Positions 129-52,000 of a stretch of 64,000 bases of DNA are shown piece after piece. The position numbers and the translations under genes are program-made. Numbering within the stretch: position 1 is the stretch's first letter; each line of letters starts with the position of its first letter. The notes under the pieces were generated by a model that worked only from the letters and a program-made list of their open reading frames with translations, was not told the DNA's origin and searched no databases. Origin of the DNA: Nautilus pompilius (Eukaryota > Mollusca > Cephalopoda > Nautilida > Nautilidae); NCBI GenBank assembly GCA_018389105.1, contig JACATO010000604.1, positions 124,001 to 188,000 of the forward strand, written 5' to 3'.

Positions 129-3100
129 GTACAAAACGAAAAAAAAAAGAGGAGCAATAATAATGATACATCGCCATTTAAAACCAGTCCCTGAAGGTAG
201 GCAGTACAGTAATCTCATCGGGTTGGGGGGGGAAACCAATCAGTGCCCCCTCCGGGAACGTATTATACCCCTTCGTTACCGGAATCGCTGTCAGTGTCCC
301 AAGTCGAGAATACAGGTACGTCTGAGACGGGCTCCTTTGTTTAAATAAAACGGTCGCCCTCAGAGATGTTCGGCGCCAAATCTGGTGGGTGAGGAACGTT
401 GTGCCTGGTCAGAACTTCTCGTGGCGAGTGCCTAAATGTGATATGGTGGCGTTGTCGTGTTGCAACATCCCACGCACCTGACCGCTACCTTCCGGGCAGT
501 TTCCATCTAGCTGCATCTCTCAGGTGTTTCAGGACGGCCATCTCCACACGAGAATTTCTGACCGTCAAATGACCCCTTTTTCTAGCCGCGCCCCCCCCCA
601 AGAGTGAAATGCACCCTAAGGGGAAAGAGATTTCAGGATGTGCCAACCATCATCCGAAACGCGATGCGGGAACCGAAAGCCGTCACGAAAGAAGATCACC
701 GGGAGACGCTTCGACAAGTTCCGGAACCTTTTGATCATACCTACCAACCAATCTATTAGCGAAGAATTTTAAAAGTGAAATAGGATGGGGAAGACCTTGA
801 TCAACAAAAACAAATGAAATTATTGGATGAGATTCTGTAGTTTTCGAGTTTCTTTATCAGGTAAAAACTGTCACTGGAGAAATACACATTAATTTATTCA
901 TACTTCTGCTCCCCCACTGTCCCTGATGACACAAAACCACCAAACAAAGTGGGCACCCATCGATCCTTTAATTATTAATTATTAATATCACGTCCTTTTT
1001 TTTTTTTTAAAAATCAGGATGAAACGAGAGAGATCAAATAAAACAATTGAATACTCACAAGTCAAGCTGTATATACTAACCCATTTTCCACCCATTGTTG
1101 TTCACTGAACTGATTTCAGAAGTCAGGACTCTGCAAGGCTTTTGAGATCTTTGAAGATCTCACTGCCGCTGTCTGTGTTTCCAGCTTTTGGAGTACACAC
1201 ACTGGCTGGTTTTTGAGTCTCTCTTCAGCTATCTGGAATGTGTTCCGATATACCACCCACTCTGTTCATTCAGGTAATTAGCTACACTATGCATGTTCAG
1301 GACTGGCCATTTGTATTTATATTGTCATTGTCTTTACTGGGTGTTATGCAATATTTTGTTTCTGCAATATTTCGCACTACTCTGACTTCACAATGTAGGA
1401 ACCAGATGAAACCTATTATACTATAGTTAGTTGCGAGGTACCTTTGTCCTGAATCCTAACAACCTTTGCCTCAATTCATGTAAGTTCCTTTCCATCCTGT
1501 CATGGCATTGCTCTTGGATTTCCCTTTGTAGCAACTTTTGAGCTACAATCTGCAAACCATTCTGTGTTCTGGAATGATGGACAGGTTGGCAGCATTGTTC
1601 TATTTCTACAATTGGACAGTAACCAAGAAAATGAATGAACACTGACTGGCTAAAGGAGAACTACAGCACGCGAGGCGGCTTCCAGCAAGATCAGATTATC
1701 CCTCCGCCAATTTCTTCTGTAGGTTTTTCAGTTTTCACACAGTCTCGCCGCCCCGTTACTTCGATTACGATGGCGACTCGATATTGCGTGCCTAAACTCT
1801 CATGATCTGAAAAATTCTGAACTCTCGGCTAGAATACCGAGTGCCACTAATACCAAAATGCCCTTAGCGGACTACTTTTGTTGAGAGGCCGACCACACAA
1901 CGCAACTTGCTGAAGAGCTCAGAGATCTCTGTCCTTTGGAGTTATCCATCACGTAAGAATGTAAACACATCTAGCTGCATTTTCCACTAAAATATCACAT
2001 TTACTTGATTTCTGCGCTACATCGGTTATTTCAGAATGGATATTTTTTTTGTTTAACTCCATGTCGCAGAGCAGGTATGGAATGTCGGATTCCAAAAGTT
2101 GATGTTACTGTAAAATCTAACAACGAATTAAAGAAACGCCATTTTAAGTGACGATCTCCCCGCTAACATGGAGACAGATCACAGTATTTACATCAACGAA
2201 AAGAGAAAATTGTTTTGGTAAAGTTTGTCAACTGAAAATGTATTCGTCACAGTTTCCTATCCATCTCTGAATAATGCATGCACAGCTATACAAATGATAC
2301 TAATGCGAGATTTGTGAGTGAAATGATTTATATGTAAAATTTCAGCAATATTTTTTCTTGAGCTATAAAAATATTTATATGGAATGTAGGGAAAGAGGAG
2401 GAAGCCAATTAGTATTAGACATTTAGATCCAGTGGCGTTTTCACTACATCCATCTGTGATAAGTACTTTCTAAAATTCAGTACTATAATACAGATACAGC
2501 GAAATGATCGGTCCCTGTCTCCTTCACGACGGAAAAAAAAAAGGTCATAAGGTAAGACACATTTTCCTCTTTATACTATAACATTTTTTTCTTTTTCCTC
2601 CAAAATGTAGGAATGAACTTTTCTCCCCGCTCTTTCTTCAGCTGCATGTCCACCATCTCTCTGCAACACGTCCAGTATGCTGCAGTCATGGAAGCAAGGA
2701 GGTGAGAATCTTCAAAGTTCATAATTAACCCTACTCTCCTCTCACTTTTTTTTTTTTTTTTAAACAGTGGTTGTGAATATCATCTGAATTTCTATCACGA
2801 GTATGGAATTAAGTGGAGTTTTTCTTTTGTTTATTCAAATTGTCTCCCCTTTTTTTCTTGGATTATGGTAGGCATAGTGATAAGCTGGAAGTGCCCCTGA
2901 ATTATGCTCTTGTTCCTTCTTTAACAATAATAAAAAAAAAGAAAATGCAGGATGACTTTGCACTGTTCAGATAAAGCCACTTGTCCAAAAAAGAACCATT
3001 TTGTGGCCGATGGTTCCAACGCTATGACATCAGTGATGATAATAAATATTTCTAAAATATCCAGACATTTAAGTGTTCTCTGACGGAAAGGAAAAAAAAG

Positions 3101-6100
3101 AGTAAACTAACACTGGATCTTTCTCCATATTTTTACAGGAAGTACCCCGTTCTTCCAGGGAGACCTCGTGTTAGATGCTAACATGGAGAAACTTATATGG
3201 AACTTGCGCCAGAAGAGGGCAGCAGTGAGGAACACATCCCGGCTATGGCCGCAGGGTAGAGTGCCATATGTGTTCGGCGAGGGCATAAGTAGGCACTTAA
3301 AAATTTCTAAATTACACTAACTTAGAAGAGGTAAACGTAAGGTATTTCCAGATTCACGACTTCATTATTAAAAGCTTTTCTTCTTTCGCGAGAACTTGAA
3401 TTCGTAATGATCCCCCCCTTTTTTTGCTCCTGCTTCACTCGAAAATGATTTTTGTAAATCTCCCTTATAAAAGTCACAATTAGGGGGGAAAAGTACCCTC
3501 GTTTTTTTGTAAACAAGGAATCAAAAGATGAACAGGGGCCAAGTGTGTATGACAGTGTAATGGCTTCCTGTGGCTGGGGACAAGCCTCCCACAGCTAAAC
3601 AGAGCTATAGGGCAGAATTTCTGCCTGCCGCACCGTCCTTGTAGTTGCTTGGCTCCAAGCCCAGATCACGTGGGAAGGCTTAAGCGCGAGGCAAACTAAC
3701 CGGCCTCGTAAAAGGGCGGCAACTGATTCTAAAAATGGAGCCAAGCTACCATTCGGACCAGTTTCCCCCCCCCACCCCATGCACTGGGAAGATGCAACTA
3801 CAAGGTTACATCAATGCAACCCACAGATTTGTTGTAACAGAGTTTTATTATTAGTGACAAACGTACTGTCACAGGTGGTGTACAGCGATTTAGGGTTTTT
3901 CTCTTGTTGTTAAGACACCCTGGGGCTTCAGGCGTTAGTCCGGTGTGGCAAGATTTAACATGCCACCGCTGCTACGATCCTTTGCCCCTCGTTCAAAAAA
4001 ACAGAAGAGATTATCACGCAAATGACGATAATTAACCTGAAAAAAAAACAACAACATTAAAATGTTCGCTGACACCAGCTTAACGGAAATGATTTTCCTA
4101 AAATAAGTTGGTTTCATGTCACAAATCAGAAGTTACCGTTAGTTACAGATGGGTAACGGGAAGAAAATTACAGCCATCTTAGAGTGGAGTTGCTCGTAGA
4201 TCCAGGGGGGGAGATAACAATCTAATTTTTCCACATGCAACACTGCACAGTAATGGTTTTGTCTTTTGCGAAGAAAACCAATAGCTCAGCAGAAGATATA
4301 TAAATGCATCCCCACGATATCATTGTAGATGGGCCAATATAGTTTGTGGAAAAACTCACGGTAGGCCGGTTTGGCCCAGCATTGGCCCAATGACCTGTGT
4401 AATGGGCCAACGGTGCCGGTACAAAACGGTATATCGCCAGCATTGGCCAATACAGGCAATTTTGTTGGGAACTTGGAACCAGTCTGAACCTCCACTGCGC
4501 GGAAGCTTCATGGTGGCACTACTTACTGTGATGGATCTGGTTTGTGAAGTCCTGCGAAACCAAAACAGTCCTCACCGGGGGCCGCCTTCAAAACAGAGAC
4601 AGGCGAGATTCTGAGACGGTGATAAAAACAGTCGGTCTTTAAATGTCCATCGTCCATATGGGAGTCGCTTCAGTTTCTGGAGCCAGGATAGAGTTTTCTC
4701 TGTTAATCTGTAGATAGGTTTGTTTGTTACTTGATGCGATGTCACATGACCCCTCCCCCAAAAATGGCGCAGTTCTCCTTCCCACAGATTAGCTGTTCGT
4801 CTTGTAGAATGGTAAATAGTTTTTTCTTCTTTTTTTTTTGTATTTAAAAATCTCCCCATCATGGTGGATCCGGAAGATTTCGTCGTGGAGGCAACCAGTA
4901 TCCCAGATTCTATCTACTTCTACGGTGGTGAAAGCGCTAGGGAGTTAAATGTGCGATCTCAGATCCCAACAGTTTGCAATATCTTGGCAAACAAAACAAA
5001 CAAAAAAAAAAACAACATTCCCACAATGCAACGCTGTGAAAGCTGAGTCCTAGTAGAATATGGTGCAAGGTGTACAAAGGGAAAGTTGGTGAATATAAAA
5101 CTTTTATTAGATTCCATGCCCCGGCCACTTCGAGTTTCGTTTTTGATGACAGTATACAGTATATAATCCGAACGCTACTTATGCGCATTTGGTCTAACTT
5201 CTGTGACAGCTTCCCCAGGAATCTGATCCTGATATCTGTTTACTGTAGATTCAAAGCTGAGGAGGGTCATCTGGAAGGCGATGAGACTCATACAGGAGAA
5301 AACGTGCATCAAATTCAGGCGAAAGAAACACACGGACAGAAATTACCTGAAATATGTCGCCGAGCCCGGGTAAGGAAATGTCCCAGCTGGCTCAGCCAGC
5401 AGATTTATCTAACGTTTCTGTGTATTGCTGTAAAACTGACGGCCAGCGCCGTCAGTTATGTTGGGACCAGGGGAGTAAGACCCGCGACGCGTCAGCCAAG
5501 GAGGGAGTGGGGGGCTGGAAAGTTCACGTGTTGTTACTGACTTCTTGAAATCCCCTTTCAGTTGTTGGTCGTACGTCGGGCGCGTAGGAGGGGAGCAGAA
5601 AATCAGCTTGGGTAGAGGATGCGAGCACCGGGGTACAGCCATTCACGAGACGGTACACTCGCTGGGCTTTTGGCACGAACAGGTGAGTTGGTACGAGGGG
5701 AACCGGGGAAAACCAACAAGAAAGCTGAGAGGCGAGACAAAGCAGCGCCACCAAAATGAGATCGCTTTAACGAACGTATACTTTATTGTGTGTATAGTGT
5801 GGACATTTAAATTACTCAGATCAGAAAATTAATTTCGAACTTCCCGAAATATTCTCAAAGAAAAAGGGATGGGGTGGAGAGACAGAGAGAGAGAAAGATG
5901 ACGTCAGTACAGAGAGAGAGAAAGATGACGTCAGTACAGAGAGATGGCGTAGTACAGAGAGATGACATAGTACACACAGAGAGAGAGATGACATAGTACA
6001 GAGAGACAGAGAGAGATGGAGAGAGATGACGTAGTACAGAGAGAGAGAGAGATGACATAGTACAGAGAGAGAGAGATGACGTCAGTACAGAGACAGAGAG

Positions 6101-9100
6101 ACATAGAGAGATGACATAGTACAGAGAGACATAGAGAGAGATGACGTCAGTACAGAGAGAGAGAGATGACGTAGTACAGAGAGAGAGAGAGAGAGTTCTT
6201 CTTGCTTCTTTTGTTGCTCGCTTTAATAACAGAGTGGTGACAGTTGTTCACAAACTTTTCAGTCCCGGCCAGACCGAGCCAAGTACATTCGAATTAATGA
6301 AAAGAACATCACGCCGAGCGGACTGCGAGATTTCCAGCTGCTGGACCAGAGGCTCGTCAACACCCGACAATACGCTTACGACTACCTCAGCATCACTCAT
6401 TACGGCTCGCTAGCATTCACGGTCAACGGACAGCGAACAGTTGACGTAAGTAAGCTCCCCCCCACCACAACGTGCGTTCCGAGATAAAGCACAAACAAAC
6501 TGTCAGGAATTTCAGAAACAGCAGGGAAAATAGAGAGAGAGAGGGAGATGGAGAGAGGTGGAGAGAGGGAGATGGAGAGAGAGAGAGAGATGGAGAGAGA
6601 TGACGTCAGTAGTACACACAGAGAGAGAGAGAGAGAGAGATTTTCTCACACAGAACTCGTGTACGTATATCCCCCCCCCCGCCTCGCGCCCTACACCCTA
6701 TCAGAAGTAATCCTGAAGATGGCGGGCAGAACTACTAAGCTGCTGCTGTTCTCAGCAACATGGAAACCCAGTATCTAGCAAACGATTCCAAAGTGTTCTG
6801 ATGCGGAAACTGAACCGCGATCATCCGTAATCTGCGTGCGCTAATTTTATCAACGAGTTTTCGTCTATTCTCCGAAGAGCTGGTTCTTATCCACACAACT
6901 TCTCCGAATCCAAAACCACCCAACAAAAGGACGACGGTTTCCCTGCCCTCCTCAGCAAAGAATCCTCTCCCCCGTCGGGTTTAGAACTAACGTTGCAGCG
7001 CTAGGGATGAACGTCCCCCCCACCCAACATCTACGTGAGGCAGTAGGACCTTTTCTGCGATTACCCCTTAAAGGGGAGAAGAAGAAAACAACACACGTGT
7101 TAGCGTTGGATGCACATTAAAAGGATCAATGCAACAGCTCTGTGGAATGAGGTTTACACAATGGGCGATCCACTGCTCGTATTTTCATAGCCCCAGTTGT
7201 GGTACTCCCTGACTATTTACATGACAACCAGTCACAACAGCATGTTATACCAACACATGGCTGTACCATGGAGCATTCAACCCGTATACATGACACGTCA
7301 GGTGTTATTTGCAGTTTTTCCTATTTCAATAATTATTTACAATACTGCACACACACACACATATATATATAAAAGTAGGTTAGCTATACTGCATTATGGT
7401 TAATCACCCTCTGGCCCCTTTAATGAGAGAATTAGAGACTGAACCAAAGGTAGGTGGGTGGGGGGAGAAAGAAAGAAATGAAGGGAAATTCCTATTTCAG
7501 ATTTAAGGGCAATCATTTGAACCCAGGAACAACTTCTAATTCTCGATGAAAAGAACACCTGTGGAAGAAAGGAGAGAGAGAAAGAAAAGTTTATAGATAC
7601 TGGGTGTTTATAGTTGGCTGTCAGAGATCAGCTGGGGTAATTGAGGTGAAACTAGAGGACCCCTGCCTGTTGTTAGGATAGAGAATGCAAAACCATTTTG
7701 TTGGAAAATATTTTTTTTCTAAACAAAACCTAGAAATATTCTGTAAATAAACATTCCTTTAAAAAAAAATTAACTCTTTTACTTTTCAAATTGACCAATG
7801 GATGTTAATTTTGAGATTAAAAGGTAAAAGCAAGAATTACAAAAGAGAATTAAATATTTCTGGTTTAAAATAACAATGAAATTGTTTCCAGTTTTTGTTT
7901 TGACCCGAAATGTTCGATTTTTTTTTACAAGAGTTACCTCCTCTTGTTTCAGAAATGTTTCATTAAAATGTTGACTTATCAAATGCTAAACTACTAATCT
8001 TTAGTATTTTTAAAAAGTTTTCCCATTTAGCATTCAAAGTTAAAAAAAAAAATTAATAAAAACGCCCTTGTTCTGTTCCCTCATTTGTGGGATAACATAC
8101 CTTAGTTTTTCTCTTCGAGCTCGTCATATAGAAAAAGGAAAACCAACAACAACAAAAAACCGTACAGTAGGGAAATGTGACCAGTGAAAATAGTTCCTAC
8201 CTATCCCAAAGGGTCGAGCTCCATCGTTGCATAGTGCAGAGGACTGCCCGAAACGTTGAATTTTTCCTCAGCTGTTTTCTGCATCTCAGGGCTTGGAGCT
8301 TTGAAACTTTTTTTTTTTTTTTGTGTTTGTTTGTTTGTTTGCCCATTAACCCTTTTCCCGTTAGAAACGGGCAGCTAAAGTTGCCCAACTCGTTTCTCCT
8401 GCTTTCGATTCACAGTCGACGCTTCCGTCCCGTCAAAATGCGGCAGAGGCGATGGTCAGGGGCAGCAGGAGCTGGTGGTTTCTCGAGCGAGGATCTCCGG
8501 CAGAGTTTTAAGAATTGTTGTTGTTGTTGCCAGGGAGTCCATTAAAAAAACGCAGAGAGAGAGAGAGAGAGACGGACAGGACAGGACAGGACAGATGTGC
8601 TTTTTTGTTGTTTTGCAGGTCATTGGTGTTGGGAAGGAACTCGGGCTGACCATCGGGAAACGAGATTCTTTGAGCGAACTGGACATAGCTCAGTTTAAGG
8701 ATCTTTACCGATGTAATACCAAAAAAGACAGCGAGGAACAGTGTGAGTGTACAAGGACCCCCCCTTATCTCCTACAAAACAAAAATGAACAGACAGACAC
8801 CTTCCTCCAGCTAAGCAATTCTCAACTCTCTTGTTAAACTTTACTAACTGGATGGAAGCGAAGAAAACAATATTAAGTACTGGTAATTCAAAATCTTTCA
8901 ACAGTTGTCTTTTAGGCAGGGCAGGGTTAACCAGCCTTGCCTGAACTAATTTTGCCATCATCTTTTCTCTTGTTCCCGAATTTTAAAAGAAATTTAAGTT
9001 TTACATTTAAAAAAAATCAAAAGTGGTAAGCAGAGAATATATATTCTGTCCGTATATACAAAAGCAATCATAAGATGGACTTGTCAATGAAATATCACTA

Positions 9101-10718
9101 AATTATCAAGCATATACCGATGTGCATGCAATGGTGAGTCTACAATTATGGCTGCCAGAGAGAGAGAGAGAGAGAGATGTCCATACAGAGAGAGAGAGAG
9201 AGATGTCCATACAGAGAGAGAGAGAGAGATGTCCATACAGAGAGAGAGAGAGATGTCCATACAGAGAGAGAGGAGATGGATATATACATATAATGTGTGT
9301 GTGTGGTGTGTGAAATTGTATGTACCACTTTTTATTTAAAAAAAAAAAAAAGGTTTTTCATTTCAGCATGTCCAAAAGGCTGGGAGAAGTTCAGTACCAG
9401 TTGCTATAAGTTTATCCGGGTTCCTAAAAAGCAATTTGCAGGTGCACGTCAGTTTTGCAGGGAAAATAAATCACACCTGGTCAGCATTGAAAACAGCCGT
9501 GAAGACGGTTACCTGAAACGCTACCTGGAAGGAAACCATGCAGTGGATCTGCACTGGCGCACGGGGGGAAGGCTGGTGAATGGTACATTTTACTGGTATG
9601 GAGCAGGGAAAAAGGGGACCCACACTAGAATGAGGTACACCAACTGGCCGGAAGGCTATCCAGGGATATATACTTCGCTGATATTGGCTAAACAATCAAA
9701 ACTAAAGAAGTTCATCTGGCAGGGAGCCTGGATAGGATCTGCAGAGCAACTACCTGATTACACGTATTCATTCATCTGTGAAAAGAAAGCAAAACGTAGG
9801 TAGCCAAGCCTGTCTAGCAAGGCATGCCTTTGTATTAGGGTAAGCTCACTGTGTTGATACTTCCCCTTTAATGATCTTTAGAAACAGATATCTGCAAGCA
9901 GTTTTATTTGAGTTTGTAGAACCAGGCAGCCTATACTGATAATATTTGTACCATAAATCCATATAAAAAATGCTTTTATTTACAATTCCACAGGGCTGAA
10001 ATCTAATCTGACCCAATTGTTATCAACAATTTCACCAGCTTTAAATCTCTTGGGATTGTGATATTACTTGCAAACTAAGGTTCAAAAGGTAATTGTGAAT
10101 TCCATCTGGTTTTCAGTAACATTATAACTGTTTTTAATCTTGATAGGGGAGGTGAACACACGTGCAGAGCATGTATACTTTACTTTTCTTACTTGGTTTA
10201 AAATGCAAACTGCATAATTGCCAATATACCTTTAACATAAACTGTCTCCTACCATTTACGAAGCTGGTAATTAAGTATGAGAAAATTTTCTGATGGATTT
10301 GTCACTATCAAGCTGTTTAAGATTTTGCCAGGTCTCTGGTATCCAGTCAGATTTAGAATGATTCTCCAGCATAAAGTAAAATACAATGTAACATGGTGAT
10401 AAATCTTTTGTGTTTCTCCTCCCTAAACAAACAGGTAAATGCATCTGGTCTGATTACAAGGATGTGCGTGACTACAGAGGAGAACTGGAACACAGCCAGG
10501 ATGGTTCAACATGTCAGAAGTGGACGTCCCAGTACCCACACAAACACAGGGCTCTTGTCAACGACGCACTTGCAGCCCAGGACGGCCTCGGAGATCACAA
10601 CTTTTGTCGAAATCCCAGCACAAGCCGGCGGAGGAAGCCCTGGTGCTTTACAACCAAACGTAGGAGAACGTGGAACTACTGTGACATCAGGGCATGCCGG
10701 CAGAAGAAAGAACCCTAA
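74..10718 (+). CDS. Secreted astacin (M12A) metalloprotease with C-type-lectin-like and kringle domains
   Basis: This is a spliced gene encoding a zinc endopeptidase that should be secreted. Coding exons: 74-128 (tentative), 2642-2701, 3139-3288, 5249-5369, 5562-5682, 6263-6445, 8619-8742, 9367-9795 and 10435-10718 (stop TAA). Every junction is GT-AG and the phases (1,1,1,2,0,0,1,1) join to 1527 nt, or 508 residues. Order in the model: signal peptide about 1-18; propeptide with FQGD aspartate switch (44-47); basic site RQKR (62-65); astacin domain about 66-262 with [12 protein letters not shown] at 157-168; C-type-lectin-like domain 273-411; six-cysteine kringle 417-505. The Met-turn reads SITHY instead of SxMHY. 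Substrate and tissue cannot be told. I do not recognise a named ortholog. The catalytic, lectin and kringle exons are secure; the first exon is weak and the second moderate. Confidence 0.85.
129..2641. other. First intron or 5' flank of the astacin gene
   Basis: No gene is recognised here. It holds homopolymer runs, a strong isolated donor (ACAG|GTACGT at 315/316) that may end a 5' untranslated exon, and an 18-bp near-palindrome at 1144-1161. Open frames in it (for example 1427-1642 minus) match nothing I know. Confidence 0.4.
2642..2701 (+). CDS. Astacin gene exon 2, propeptide start
   Basis: A 60-nt exon lies between TTCTTCAG and G|GTGAGA. In the only phase that joins the next exon it reads [19 protein letters not shown], with two cysteines and no stop. 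The splice consensus and the matching phase support it. The residues themselves are not diagnostic of astacins. Confidence 0.5.
3139..8742 (+). CDS. Astacin propeptide and catalytic domain (five exons)
   Basis: Exons 3139-3288, 5249-5369, 5562-5682, 6263-6445 and 8619-8742 encode the protease. The first carries FFQGDLVLD, the propeptide motif whose Asp caps the zinc in pro-astacins, then RQKR and the mature start [13 protein letters not shown]. The second carries [18 protein letters not shown]. The third carries [10 protein letters not shown] and the zinc site [13 protein letters not shown] with all three His ligands and the catalytic Glu. The fourth starts SRPDR and holds the Met-turn [10 protein letters not shown]; the zinc-bound Tyr is kept but the Met is Thr, coded ACT. 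The fifth ends the domain with [14 protein letters not shown]. The fold and catalytic residues look intact, so activity is likely. The Met-turn change may alter metal-site packing. Confidence 0.93.
3289..5248. other. Astacin gene intron with GGCCAATG repeat cluster
   Basis: No exon is recognised in this stretch. At 4329-4450 there are clustered direct and inverted copies of GGCCAATG, including a perfect 8-bp stem TTGGCCCA / TGGGCCAA at 4382-4389 and 4403-4410. This looks like the remains of a repetitive element. Confidence 0.4.
5434..5457. repeat. Perfect 10-bp inverted repeat (hairpin) in astacin intron
   Basis: AACTGACGGC and GCCGTCAGTT flank a CAGC loop in the intron just upstream of the zinc-site exon. 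The stem is perfect and GC-rich. No known function. Confidence 0.6.
5870..6196. repeat. GA-rich minisatellite with TGACGTCA units
   Basis: Irregular units of the form (GA)n-ATGACGTCAGTACA or ATGACATAGTACA fill most of the intron between the zinc-site exon and the Met-turn exon. Perfect TGACGTCA octamers (the CRE core) lie at 5899, 5926, 6077 and 6142. Many other units have lost one base of the palindrome. Open frames across it are repeat artefacts. Confidence 0.85.
6531..6644. repeat. Second GA-rich minisatellite
   Basis: GAGAGAGGGAGATG-type units follow the Met-turn exon. They include one more TGACGTCAGTA unit at 6601 and are clearly related to the array at 5870-6196. Confidence 0.8.
6645..8551. 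other. Astacin gene intron, no gene seen
   Basis: AT-rich intron with a (CA)n(TA)n run at about 7347-7372 and several homopolymers. I see nothing coding. Confidence 0.5.
8552..8594. repeat. (GA)n followed by (GGACA)n microsatellite
   Basis: A short GA run is followed by four tandem GGACA units just upstream of the acceptor of the exon at 8619. Confidence 0.8.
9155..9275. repeat. GA minisatellite with ATGTCCATACA units
   Basis: Four near-identical units of (GA)n-TGTCCATACA lie just before the lectin-like exon. They use the same layout as the arrays at 5870 and 6531: a GA run, then ATG, then a short fixed tag. Confidence 0.85.
9367..9795 (+). CDS. C-type-lectin-like domain exon of the astacin gene
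   Basis: One exon encodes a whole C-type-lectin-like domain, from [15 protein letters not shown] to YSFICEKK. Cysteines are at model residues 273, 284, 302 and 409. The N-terminal hairpin pair and the C1/C4 pair are present, but the C2-C3 pair is not. The calcium and sugar motifs are also missing: the EPN/QPD position reads TNWPEGYPG and there is no WND. The fold is therefore likely kept, while calcium-dependent sugar binding is unlikely and a protein-binding role is more probable. Both flanking introns are phase 1. Acceptor TTTCATTTCAG, donor C|GTAGGT. Confidence 0.9.
10435..10718 (+). CDS. Kringle domain, last exon of the astacin gene
   Basis: The exon reads [20 protein letters not shown] and then continues with TCQKW, PHKH, NFCRNP, PWCFT, YCDIRAC and a short basic tail before TAA at 10716-10718. 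All six kringle cysteines and the hallmark NxCRNP and PWC segments are present, so a complete domain is encoded. Kringles are disulfide-rich binding modules of secreted proteases and growth factors. It is entered in phase 1 from the lectin-like exon. Confidence 0.93.
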
Positions 10719-11706
10719 CCAATATTCCTGTCCGAATTGACAAGGACTGATGAGTGTAGCCTAATGCGTGGCCGCTTCATCCGGAAAAGAAAAGTTAAAG
10801 CAAACCAGTCTCTTAGGTCCAGGGCAATAAATGTGACGCAGAAATCAACAGACAGAAACTAACAGTAGGTAGTCTTTCCAGTCTTCCACTCAGACATTAC
10901 AACTGAAGGGAGATGATAATATAATACTTGTGAATTCTTAACACTTCCTGGTTGGCACAGGCCACCAATTTGTTGGATCTGAAATAAACACCATAATTAT
11001 TATTATTATTATTATTATTTTTTTTTAGGCTGAGGTTTCACCAAAACTGTATTTAGCTTTAACAGAATAAATGAAAATGAAGAAAGAAATCAACAAGTTT
11101 CCAAGTTGTGTGTGCTATGTAATGTTTTTCAGACCAATCTGTGGATTCATTATGGTTTATAGGCAGCATGTGCAATGAAACAAAGAAGCACCTGCAAGGA
11201 CAATTACAAGTTGTTTTTCTCTGAGTGGAGGAATGTAATGTTTAAAGAGAACAGCATTTAAATGCTGTAGACTGGTTCACAACAAATTTCTATTATTATC
11301 GCTGTTCTTCTTTAAACTTTTTTCTTATTACAATATTCTGCTATAACACCTGATAAAATTTTTAAAATCCCTATCCTCTGAGCAATAGCGAGAAAAACAA
11401 AAACAAAAAAAAACAACTCAGATTACTTACCTTTTCCTTACTTTCACAATTTTAAATATCTCTACTAAATCTCCATGCCAATTATGAAGTCTTACCGAAG
11501 AACCAAGATTGTTTGTGCCACGCAGTCTATAAACACCTTGACACATGCAGGTATGAGAGTCTTTTTTTTAAAAAATCTTTGTATGTGTGCAGGTGTGTAC
11601 TTGCTGTTCTTTAAAAAAAATTTTCACATCCATGACATCATTTTAACGTTGTGCTGCATCCCTAGCTGGAGTAGCTGAAACTTCTTAGCCACTGGCATTT
11701 AAGGAG
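10719..11706. other. Tail-to-tail spacer between the astacin gene and LYRM2
   Basis: This holds the 3' untranslated region of the astacin gene, an (ATT)n run at about 10995-11020, and presumably the LYRM2 3' untranslated region on the other strand. I saw no clear minus-strand AATAAA. Confidence 0.5.
10826..11071 (+). promoter_or_regulatory. Candidate polyadenylation signals of the astacin gene
   Basis: AATAAA occurs at 10826-10831, 10983-10988 and 11066-11071 downstream of the TAA stop. The second is followed by an ATT repeat and a T-rich stretch. Which one is used cannot be told from sequence. Confidence 0.5.
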
Positions 11707-32230: not shown

Positions 32231-35200
32231 GTATTTGTTGTTACATAAGGTTTCATTAGTGATGAAGGTACTGTGTCACAGGCCCTTTAGCCCAACCTAT
32301 GCTGAGTAATAGAGATTTTAAAGGTATTTGGGTACAGCTGCATCCCAAGTGGTATGCAGAGACAAACCAGCAGCAAGAAGAAAAACAACTTGCTTCAGAT
32401 CTTATGTAAATGTAGAAAATGGTGAAATATTATCGTGGTGTCTAGTCTCTTATATTTACAGAATTTTAATGGCAGTGTTGGTACTGTATTGTATGTGATC
32501 TGAGAGCCTTTCTTCATCTCCTGAAGATGATCTATTGCCAATTCAGGAAACTGAAGATGGTGACAGGAAATGTGACAATATCAGTACAGCAGATAATTTT
32601 AGGTGTTGATGAAAGCCAAAAAAAAAAAAAAAATTTCTCCATCTCATCCAGCCACATGTCATTACATTAAATCATACATCTTTTTTTTTTTTTTTTCCAG
32701 ATTGGTCAGATGGCTTTCAAAGGAATGAAGCAGTTGAACTGTATCCAGTCCGTGGTTTTTGAGACGGCCTACAAGACAAATGAGAACCTACTGATCTCTG
32801 CCCCAACAGGTGCCGGAAAGACTAACATTGCCATGCTGGCTGTAATACACGAACTGAAACAGCACCTTTCTCAAGGAGTCATCAAGAAAGATGAGTTTAA
32901 GGTTTGTTTCAATCCCACCACAGTTCAGGATTCGTTGCTGTATTTTAATCTGACACAATCCTGGATTCCAAGTAACCATCCATCTTCTCTTTTTCTGTTT
33001 TTGAATCTTGAAATTTTCAGCAGCAGAGCTAGGCTCACATGATCGCTTTACTTGCAGAAAACTTTTTTTTTTTTTTTTTTTACCAGCGATATGTTGGGCT
33101 GCGCAGGTCTGTGCTGCCACTCTGCATTCGTTGTTCAAAGGAACCAGGAGGAATACTCTTCATAAGATAGTGGTCAGTCTCTGTAGAGCAGAAGCAAGAA
33201 TTTAAAATTGTCTTTACTTTCCTTTTGAAAACTTGTCTCTTATAAGATTCGTTCTCATTGTAAAAAAATTCCTTTTGTTGTTAGATTGTTTACGTGGCTC
33301 CTATGAAGGCGCTGGCTGCTGAGATGGTGAGGAACTTTGGGCGTCGCCTTGAGTCCCTGGGGATAGTTGTGCGTGAGCTCACAGGAGACATGCAGTTGAC
33401 AAAAAAGGAAATCCTTCAAACACAGGTAACTTGAAATCTACGATATCATTTAAGATTTGCAAAAAACTGAAAAAATTCGTTTTCTGCTATGGTAGACTCA
33501 TCAACTGGGTCAGAAAGACCACTTTTATGGTGGAGAGAACAAATTATTAAAAGAATTGGCCTTCTTAATTAAGGGGAGACTAGGCACAGTGGCACAAAAC
33601 AAGAGAAAAATAAATTTTTTTTTCTTTGGCAGTCAGTCTGAAAAAACAAACCGTCAACTAACCTAGAGTAATTTTGCCCATACCGAAATCACTAGTTACA
33701 GAGTAAAATCGCTTACATGTGTACATATAAGAACAATTAAGAGTTTCGACAAACTTTGTATTGCTGTCTCTGGAAATAATCATAATTCTGAACAGGACCA
33801 AGTTCAGTGACTTTACAGTATATGTGGTCATATCTAATTCTGGAGGAGATTCTTTGAGAACCTAGCCATCTTAAAAGCATGACACTGTCCGTTTTCTGGA
33901 AATATTAAATCTCACAGAGTGAGTCATCTAGGTCTTAATTTAGTATGGCTATTTTGAATTAATTTTTTTCAAGTCTAGTTCGGCCTTAGGTAGGTTGAAT
34001 CAGCATATGATAGGTCAGGAAGTGAGAAAGTATTCTTAGAAACCAGAATATACAGCAGCAATTAATGAGTGGATTCCATAACATTGCTTTCTTAAACCAG
34101 TTATTTTGTTTGTTTTGGTTTATAGAATGGCCAAATAGTATTGTTTATCTTCAGTTGCTATTTATTGGTACCACAGTCAAGGATTTAAGAATCTGACAAC
34201 ATGTTATGGGTTTATCACGTGATGGCTTTGTTTTCAGCCGTTGTGTGTGTGTGCCTGTATACAAAATTTGTTTGGCCTTAGTGTTTTTGTAAGCTTTTCT
34301 TATTTCTTTGAATCAAAGTATTTACGTAATATTTTAAAAACTTGCTGATGTGTGTGACTTATCTGCAGCGCACATTAAATTGTTTGTCTTGATGGCAAAT
34401 TAAAGGTTAAGGTCGTCTTAATAAGGACATATTCAAAAAATGCATTCATACAAAGGCTTCATATTTATTTAGTATTTTTTCTAAATGTTTTAGAATGGTG
34501 ACAGGAAAACAAAGAAAAAGAAACTGTTGATTTTCCCATAGAAGCAAAACATCAACTTTTGTATTTAAAATGAGACCAAAAACTCTCTCTATTTCTGAAA
34601 GGAGATAATTATTAATGTAATGTAGTTAATGAGAGAGAAGCAACGAAAGTAAGTTCTTCAGTTATTAGTTCTAAAAATATAAAAAGCTTAGTCAGGAAAA
34701 ATAGGAATAAAAAAAAGACACTGGCCAGGTTTTGTACTTGGCATCTTGTTACTAGTGAGTGAGTAGTGGCTGTTTATTTCAGATGTTAGTGACCACGCCA
34801 GAAAAATGGGATGTGGTAACCAGGAAGAGCACTGGAGACATCTCTCTCTCTCAGCTGGTGCGGCTGCTGATTATTGATGAGGTTCATCTGCTCCACGATG
34901 ACAGGGGCTCAGTCATTGAAAGCATTGTAGCTCGGACCCTAAGGCAGGTGAGAGGGGCATCTGGTTTTTGTGATATTTAGCTGCATTATTTATTTATTTC
35001 TAGGAATTTTGATAAAAAATCAGCTATGGGTGCTGGGAGGAGGATACTTACAGCACTGATGATAAATAATCATAAGATTAATTTTCTTTTCTCTAAGCTA
35101 GTACAGAAACTTTGATGAACTTTAATATAACTGACTAAAAATCCCAAATCAGGCATAGAGTAAAGAATATCATGGAGACTGTGCAGTCCTTTTGGATTTA

Positions 35201-49000: not shown

Positions 49001-52000
49001 CTAATTATAACTGTACCACACTTGTAAGTGTGGATTCTCAGAGTGAGTTTTTGTTTTCTCTCTCCCCACCCTCCACAGGTGCATGGGAAGACAGGTGAGC
49101 CATTCTGGATCTGGGTGGAAGATCCAGAAAACTATCACATCTACCATTCTGAGAGCTTCTTGCTGCACAAGAAATGCGTAAGTGGATGGAGATTTTATTC
49201 TATCAAGGAACTTACAGAAAAGATTTCAAAGTAGACTCTTGAAACCAATATTAATAAAAAGACTGAATATAATTTTAAATCCACAATAGATAGCACACTA
49301 AACTTTTCACTGTGTCAATGTGTCAAGGTTTATTTCTTATCATTATTCTAAAAGTTGGCACTATGGACTCCTGTCTTGATGCCTGCAGCTAATCATTGTT
49401 TACATGATGAGAAAGCTCACACTAAGTACATACTGTCATCTTGATGCTGAAGCTAAACCTACAATGACATTCCAGCATGAGAATAATGTTGCCACAATAG
49501 GTTTTAAGTAAAATTTTATAAAAATCAAAAGATGCTGACTTTTCTTCACTATATTTGGTAAATTCCACAATAATTTTTTAGACTCACTAACTTTAATTCT
49601 CAGTAATAATTCTCAGGTTCAACAACTTTGAGATATATCTAATAGCTTCTTTCTCAGTCATGGTTGAAAACAAACATCATCTTGTGATGGAGTTTCTTTC
49701 TCTGGCTTAGTTTTCCTTTAAAACACTAGGTTCTATTGATGCAGCACACATTTCCTTTTAAATGTATAGGGTATGTTTGACAGCAGTAACAACAATGACA
49801 TAGTGGTTCTATCAGTAAGTGGGCAGAACTGGTAAATGTTGTTGCATTTTCTGCAGGAAAACCTGTTATTAGAATACCTTTATAGCTCCTATATGTGTGC
49901 TCTCTCTCTCTCTCTCTCATATAGATATATTATTTTTATGCCAGGTTATAAAGAAGGAGCCACAGACGCTGGTATTCACCATTCCCATCTTTGAGCCACT
50001 CCCCAGCCAGTACTACATTAAAGCTATGTCTGATCGGTGGCTGGGATCGGAATCTGTATTCCCAATCTCCTTCCAGCATCTCATTCTTCCTGAACGACAT
50101 CCTCCTCACACTCGTAAGTTAACTGTCATTTATGATGGCATAGCGATTGTTGATGATGGGTTTGTTTGCTTTTCTTTGTAATTTTTAAAATAGTTTCTAA
50201 TGCTATCAAATGGGAGGTAACCTAATAAAACTTTGTGTTGACTTCTATCAATGTGTGAATGAAAACTTTTTTTTATGAAGGATTTTATATCCATCACATA
50301 TCCTGTTTGTAACATTTTTGCACAGGAAAACTAAGAAAAAAATTTAGGCAGTTTACTTTGCTGAGGTACTTGGCAAAGATTTGCAATTTCACTTATCACT
50401 TGTTTACTGATTGTCTCTATGGACTGGGAAGATTTATCTTAAAAGTATTCTTTAAACCATCAAAAAAAAAAAAAAGGAATCCATCTATGGACACCTGGAA
50501 GATTTAGATAACTCATAAAATATTGCATTTGTTTACATGGCAAGTGGTGGTAGTAGTACTTTTTTTTTTTTTTCCATAGTGCCTGAAGATGATATATGGT
50601 AACATTTTAGTAAACTCCATGAATGTCCCCTACATATTTGAGGCAAAGAAACTGATTTTTTAAATAGTTTTTTCTAACTCAAACTTTTTCCATCTCATGG
50701 ATGCATTCTTCTAGACTTTTATTTTAATTTCTTAGATGTGTGTAGTGGTTGAGGGATATTGATAATTCTCATGCCTCTCTATTCTAAGTGGAATATAAGG
50801 CCTTCACTACTGTCTTCCATCTTGGACCACTTTGTGCTGCTTCCTTTTTTGGCAGTGGGGTGCATAGCTTCCTTCTGGTTTTCATCTCAATCATTTTTTG
50901 TGGTTGACACTTTCAGACTAATACATAAAACTGTTTGTTTACAGCTGTGACAAATTAAAAGGCTTTTAATGAGAGTAGTTGCTTACGTGCATTGGCAAAA
51001 TAAAGAAAAAATTAGTCAGGGATTGAATACTGTCAACGAGTTAAATAAGTGGCCATGTGGGCTTCCAAAAGAGACTGACCCTCTTACCATTACGTTCAAA
51101 CCATGCAGACGTCAATAGTGAGCCTTATAAACAGATAGATACGTTATAAAAAGTAAATAAAAATTTTTTTTTTCTCCCAGAACTGCTTGATCTGCAGCCT
51201 CTTCCAATCACAGCCTTGGATAATCCGATGTTGGAATCCTTATACAAGTTTACACATTTCAACCCTATCCAGACGCAGATTTTTCATGCTCTGTACCACA
51301 CAGACCATAACATCTTACTTGGTGCCCCAACTGGCTCTGGAAAGACTGTTGCAGCAGAGCTGGCGATTTTCAGGATTTTTCAGCAGTACCCAAACACTAA
51401 GGTCTGTTGAACTAGCACTGTTTTTAATTTAGAAAAGATCACTTTGGTAGATAAGGATGTGGAGAAGGTGGCATTGAACGATACTTGGGGGTGTAAAATC
51501 AGTTTTTTAAGAATCAGTTTGATGTCATGTGATTAGTGATGGGACTTAAAGCTTGATAAATTCTGTACTGTTCATGTCTGTCTGCTGATGTTGGCTCCTC
51601 TCTCCACAGCATCACTACTTTCTGAATGAAGATGTCTGTAACTGCTTCCCAAAGTAAAATGGCAGTATTACAGAATGAGATTTTATGATTTCTAGGCACT
51701 CCATGAAAGGATTCATTCATTTGAAAAATGTTTACCAGTTTTGTGCCAGGCTAATTTTTTTATCCACCTGCTTTGTACAAAGTCACCTTTTTAATCACAA
51801 AGCTTTCAGTAATGATTATGGCAACTAGAGAAAGGACTGCAATGCTGGAGACATGTAATGGCAGGTGTCTGACAAGCGCTGAAGAGATCTATAAAATATT
51901 TGCTGGTTTATTTTTGTGTGTTAAGAAGATCTATAAATTTTAGAAGGGAGAGTCACACAAAATATCTGATGATATGTCACATGTTAGCCATGACCTGGTT

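Follow-up and report, generated by a model that had tools for sequence, protein, structure and literature searches.

On the + strand of a stretch of Nautilus pompilius DNA, exons of an astacin protease lie 5' of exons for a C-type-lectin-like domain and a kringle. The locus thus raises the question of whether these modules belong to one gene, and with it whether the encoded protease would be active and whether such a combination is new. A preliminary description had proposed one phase-consistent gene from 2642 to 10718, carrying the three domains in this order. The window (the whole stretch of 64,000 nucleotides analysed here) is animal-like DNA with spliceosomal introns.

Exon structure of the locus

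Seven exons on the + strand, from 3139 to 10718, are joined through GT-AG borders into a single in-phase open frame of 469 codons, which is closed by a TAA at 10716–10718. The features of the locus, including two candidate exons further 5' and the probable 3' untranslated stretch, are as follows.

1289–1394, + strand: possible signal-peptide exon, candidate only; hydrophobic open frame starting with ATG, phase-1 GTAGG donor
2642–2701, + strand: possible small propeptide exon; 60 nt, CAG acceptor, GTGAG donor, phase 1-1, no homology support
3139–3288, + strand: exon with the propeptide end and the start of the mature protease; phmmer against PDB, TLL1 matching from AA and pro-astacin from FQGD
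3153–3164 and 3207–3218, + strand: FQGD and RQKR within the same exon, the border to AA lying at 3219 (positions counted by hand)
5249–5369, + strand: exon of the astacin catalytic domain; Pfam and PDB matches
5562–5682, + strand: exon with the astacin zinc site (5644–5676) followed by the family glutamate; PDB matches, motif positions counted by hand
6263–6445, + strand: exon with SRPDR and the Met-turn SITHY (6389–6403; Thr codon ACT at 6395–6397); PDB matches, motif positions counted by hand
8619–8742, + strand: exon closing the catalytic domain (LYRC), followed by a linker; Pfam and PDB matches
9367–9795, + strand: C-type-lectin-like exon, the entire domain in one phase 1-1 exon; matches to Lectin_C and to C-type lectin domains in PDB
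10435–10718, + strand: terminal exon with the kringle and the TAA stop; matches to Pfam Kringle and to plasminogen kringles
10826–11071, + strand: probable 3' UTR stretch from the hexamer scan, with three AATAAA 3' of the stop (10826, 10983 and 11066)

The 469 codons contain no stop and no frameshift, and all exon borders are intact (the second exon, for instance, ends at 5369 immediately 5' of GTAAGG). The phases carried out of exons 1 to 7 are 1, 2, 0, 0, 1, 1 and end, and the six introns are between 192 and 2173 nt long. The GC content was 0.46–0.59 for exons and 0.35–0.53 for introns, overlapping ranges that give no clear separation. The lectin exon is symmetrical, 429 nt with phase 1 carried in and out. 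The donor after 8742 (GTGAGT) shares phase 1 with the acceptor before 9367, as does the donor after 9795 (GTAGGT) with the acceptor before 10435.

All three domains scored above their Pfam cut-offs on the + strand in the order proposed in the preliminary description, and its two borders, 8742/9367 and 9795/10435, were correct. The phase-consistent single-gene chain was likewise supported, at the level of sequence, by the seven-exon open frame. Its span held at the 3' end, where the TAA was found, and not at the 5' start: 2642 is placed by phase fit only, and homology begins at 3139. In phmmer, that earliest homology-supported exon was matched by 6ht9, an entry named Astacin, and by 3lq0, named ProAstacin; both matches begin at model residue 5, the second F of FFQGD. 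The candidate at 2642–2701 is in frame with the next exon. The signal-peptide candidate at 1289 was not taken as evidence, as it is at chance level, similar candidates occurring in 21 of 40 same-size segments (both strands, own region included).

No second copy of any exon was detected by tblastn in the 64-kb window; five more matches there, with E values of 2.8 to 8.6, were discarded as exon copies.

One gene or two

The same exons could in principle come from two adjacent genes, a short astacin terminating shortly 3' of 8742 and a lectin-kringle protein with its first exon within 8743–9366. The frame remains open past 8742 as far as 8834, which would allow a short form that retains the intron and ends there, and the interval contains one hydrophobic ATG candidate by the thresholds used (9253), followed at 9299 and 9308 by GT sites in phase 1. 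However, these two candidate donors read GTGTGT and GTGTGA and lie inside the GT repeat in which the candidate ends, and the GTGAGT donor at 8742 is already phase-matched to the lectin acceptor. A scan of both introns, 8743–9366 and 9796–10434, found no AATAAA or ATTAAA, which speaks against two genes. A separate lectin-kringle gene would moreover need an upstream first exon, because neither of its exons starts a protein alone: the open frames 9294–9800 (lectin exon) and 10392–10715 (kringle exon) have no ATG before the domain. The intron 9796–10434 holds three hydrophobic ATG candidates, none with a phase-1 donor. By eye, the lectin exon contains an AATAAA within its coding sequence. Taken as sequence evidence, these observations make a single gene very probable and two genes improbable. 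One might also think of a gene copy in decay, or of unrelated exons united by an assembly error, since the window offers no second copy to confirm the arrangement, but with 469 codons free of stops and frameshifts and every border intact we give this hardly any credence.

The protease domain

In the first five exons, Pfam detected one family, Astacin (E 1.4e-59; 201.4 bits, cut-off 22.5; profile positions 2–189 of 189). The protease search of PDB, in which 17 distinct sequences passed E 0.001, ranked TLL1 first (129.1 bits), ahead of BMP1 (about 125) and astacin (121.4), with the meprins at the bottom (101–112). The best matches of the catalytic domain are thus of the BMP1/tolloid kind, with the AA start in register. 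Alignment to TLL1 begins at the AA taken as the putative start of the mature enzyme and ends with the last cysteine; the TLL1 chain in PDB itself begins with AA, so that the match could not extend further upstream.

The propeptide end carries FQGD, followed by a furin-type border between RQKR and AA. Pro-astacins have an FXGD motif whose aspartate blocks the zinc, and RQKR followed by AA fits the furin-type cleavage motif. Because the TLL1 match starts at AA, a furin-type cut here would leave the new N-terminus in the known register. Both the propeptide and a mature N-terminus able to dock on the family glutamate are recognized from sequence only.

The zinc motif HEXXHXXGXXH is present and is followed by EQSRPDRA, in which the family glutamate and RXDR are kept. 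Two departures from the family stand out against the motifs EXXRXDRD and SIMHY that the consulted part of PMC9848320 gives for astacins, where the Met-turn methionine is described as conserved within metzincins. The last D of EXXRXDRD is A in the Nautilus protein, and the Met-turn reads SITHY, with the tyrosine kept and the methionine replaced by threonine (codon ACT, two bases different from ATG). In contrast, TLL1 and BMP1, the two printed PDB alignments, both keep the methionine. The Nautilus domain also has one cysteine (GCWSYVG) where TLL1 and BMP1 have three (CGCCSYVG). The four cysteines of the catalytic domain equal the number in the two astacin disulfides given in that part of PMC9848320. 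By profile and zinc site this is an astacin-family (M12A) protein, one whose Met-turn departs from SIMHY.

The Met-turn change could make the protein a pseudoprotease, catalysing little or nothing and acting as a binding protein through its lectin-like and kringle domains. The replacement of a residue kept in both printed alignments and in the family motif favours this. Against it, the protein keeps the three zinc histidines, the catalytic glutamate, the family glutamate (in HEQSRPDR), the zinc tyrosine, the four cysteines, FQGD and the activation border, and in inactive homologues some of these features are usually lost. We therefore judge a pseudoprotease unlikely. Because the histidines and the tyrosine of the zinc site, the catalytic glutamate and the four cysteines are retained, catalysis is the likely outcome predicted from the sequence, although the threonine and the alanine may weaken the enzyme. 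The Met-turn threonine provides a natural experiment on the extent to which a residue that PMC9848320, in the part consulted, describes as conserved in metzincins can vary.

The lectin-like domain

The sixth exon matched Pfam Lectin_C (E 4.1e-7; 31.1 bits, cut-off 22.6) only over profile positions 2–72 of 107. It also matched UL45, a family described as C-type-lectin-like, at E 0.0031 and 17.6 bits, under that family's 27-bit cut-off. The PDB search returned C-type lectin proteins (best 60 of 159 to E 1), and 2ox9 was aligned over query residues 1–140 of 142. An AlphaFold model of this exon alone, from the single sequence, was poor (mean pLDDT 49.4; end blocks 63–74) and was not counted as evidence, and the assignment to the C-type-lectin-like domains comes from sequence match only.

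Calcium-dependent C-type lectins have EPN or QPD and WND motifs and a second core disulfide. Neither EPN/QPD nor WND was seen by eye in the Nautilus domain, which has only four cysteines, none of them between RQFC and the last FIC; the usual cysteine pair of the second core disulfide is missing. Because this pair, EPN and WND are missing, calcium-dependent sugar binding by the domain is unlikely, as far as can be predicted from its residues.

The kringle and the charge of the tail

The last exon matched Pfam Kringle at E 6.7e-21 (74.8 bits, cut-off 34.3, profile positions 7–79 of 79) and encodes the six cysteines of a kringle. Plasminogen and HGF were the best PDB matches (best 60 of 91 distinct sequences to E 1). 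Lysine-binding kringles have an acidic pair before PWC. In the alignment to plasminogen this pair is absent: at the position of DNDP-QG (CRNPDNDP-QGPWC) in the first plasminogen kringle displayed, the Nautilus kringle reads STSRRRK, and because of this replacement, plasminogen-type lysine binding is predicted to be unlikely.

The computed net charges are +14 for the protease, +15 for the lectin-like domain and +8 for the kringle, and the modelled mature protein is very basic, with a pI of 9.79. On the strength of these domain charges and this pI, we infer that the tail may dock the protease on anionic or glycan-rich material.

Similar proteins already described

The preliminary description knew of no described family with a lectin-plus-kringle tail; its suggestion of novelty did not stand up against the literature. 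P-vulgata_14, a bulk pedal-mucus protein of Patella vulgata, has, in the part of PMC7333891 consulted, all three domains and more: peptidase_M12A, ApeC, CUB, kringle, two SUSHI, C-type-lectin-like and ShKT. It counts as a bulk protein there by a rule that required detection in all three individuals, and its authors proposed an antibacterial role. Compared by domain list only, it shares M12A, the C-type-lectin-like domain and the kringle with the Nautilus protein; unlike the Nautilus model, its sequence is 1113 aa without a start codon and includes the additional ApeC, CUB, two SUSHI and ShKT domains.

The Figure 1 legend of PMC9848320 names CLEC and KRING as modules that accompany the astacin domain, though not necessarily both in one protein. 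Pfam found no C-terminal CUB or EGF of the BMP1/tolloid kind in the exons scanned; Lectin_C and the kringle stand there instead. The gastropod Colubraria reticulata has astacin-ShKT and astacin-MAM proteins, as given in the consulted part of PMC4460706; these astacins, too, have extra C-terminal modules, but ShKT or MAM rather than lectin-like and kringle. A receptor figure legend from a sea-slug study (PMC7663992) names both Astacin and CTLD, not necessarily in one protein. No astacin-kringle-lectin protein was found in the consulted portions of PMC12549020, PMC10855680, PMC6626399, PMC11788884 and PMC4581086, and a text search of the main text of PMC12549020 did not find the word kringle.

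Among the matches listed for the running text of open-access papers, no compact protein of astacin, lectin and kringle alone was found. Thus the combination of three domains in one protein has already been described, and the compact form is new as far as the matches listed go. No relatives of the 469-aa model at E 1e-3 were found in GTDB contigs (18 pattern matches) or viral contigs (6), collections that hold no animals, so that little can be read from this result. What the locus adds is the exon layout of an astacin that has a lectin-like domain and a kringle, covered from the end of the propeptide to the stop and open to comparison with P-vulgata_14. Beyond that, it is a further example of the shuffling of phase 1-1 extracellular modules onto an astacin.

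Proposed mode of action

The reading we favour, with reasonable though far from complete confidence in what is predicted from sequence, is that of a single animal gene that encodes a modular and probably secreted M12A astacin made of a propeptide, a zinc protease, a lectin-like domain and a kringle. Such a protein would be made as a zymogen in which the propeptide aspartate keeps the protease latent. A furin-type convertase would cut it in the secretory path, and the Ala-Ala N-terminus exposed in this way would, in the manner known from astacins, dock on the family glutamate. The lectin-like domain and the kringle, both basic, might then dock the protease on mucus, matrix or a microbial surface, anionic or glycan-rich, where it would cleave protein. 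We hold this docking role of the tail only tentatively. For such a protease, the most likely role would be the processing of mucus or matrix, or epithelial defence.

A more specific idea, which we put forward as speculation and consider rather doubtful, is that this is a compact, lineage-specific astacin with a lectin-like and kringle tail, its zinc site retuned by the change from methionine to threonine, and tethered by its two basic modules, which would bind polyanions in place of their usual calcium-sugar and lysine ligands; it might be a simple ancestor or a pruned relative of P-vulgata_14.

The rest of the window

A Pfam scan of 10 other open reading frames in the window gave matches for two: a DEAD helicase at 32671–33039 on the + strand (where ResIII also matched, right at its cut-off) and Sec63 at 49873–50178, also on the + strand. 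These exons presumably belong to an ASCC3-like helicase gene downstream, and they are probably parts of one such gene extending over much of 20–50 kb. A tRNA scan and an Rfam scan of the window at gathering thresholds returned nothing. By eye, AG-rich repeats are present in introns of the astacin gene at about 5870–6200, 6530–6640 and 9155–9280, with GATGACGTCAGTAC-like or GATGTCCATAC units interspersed in them.
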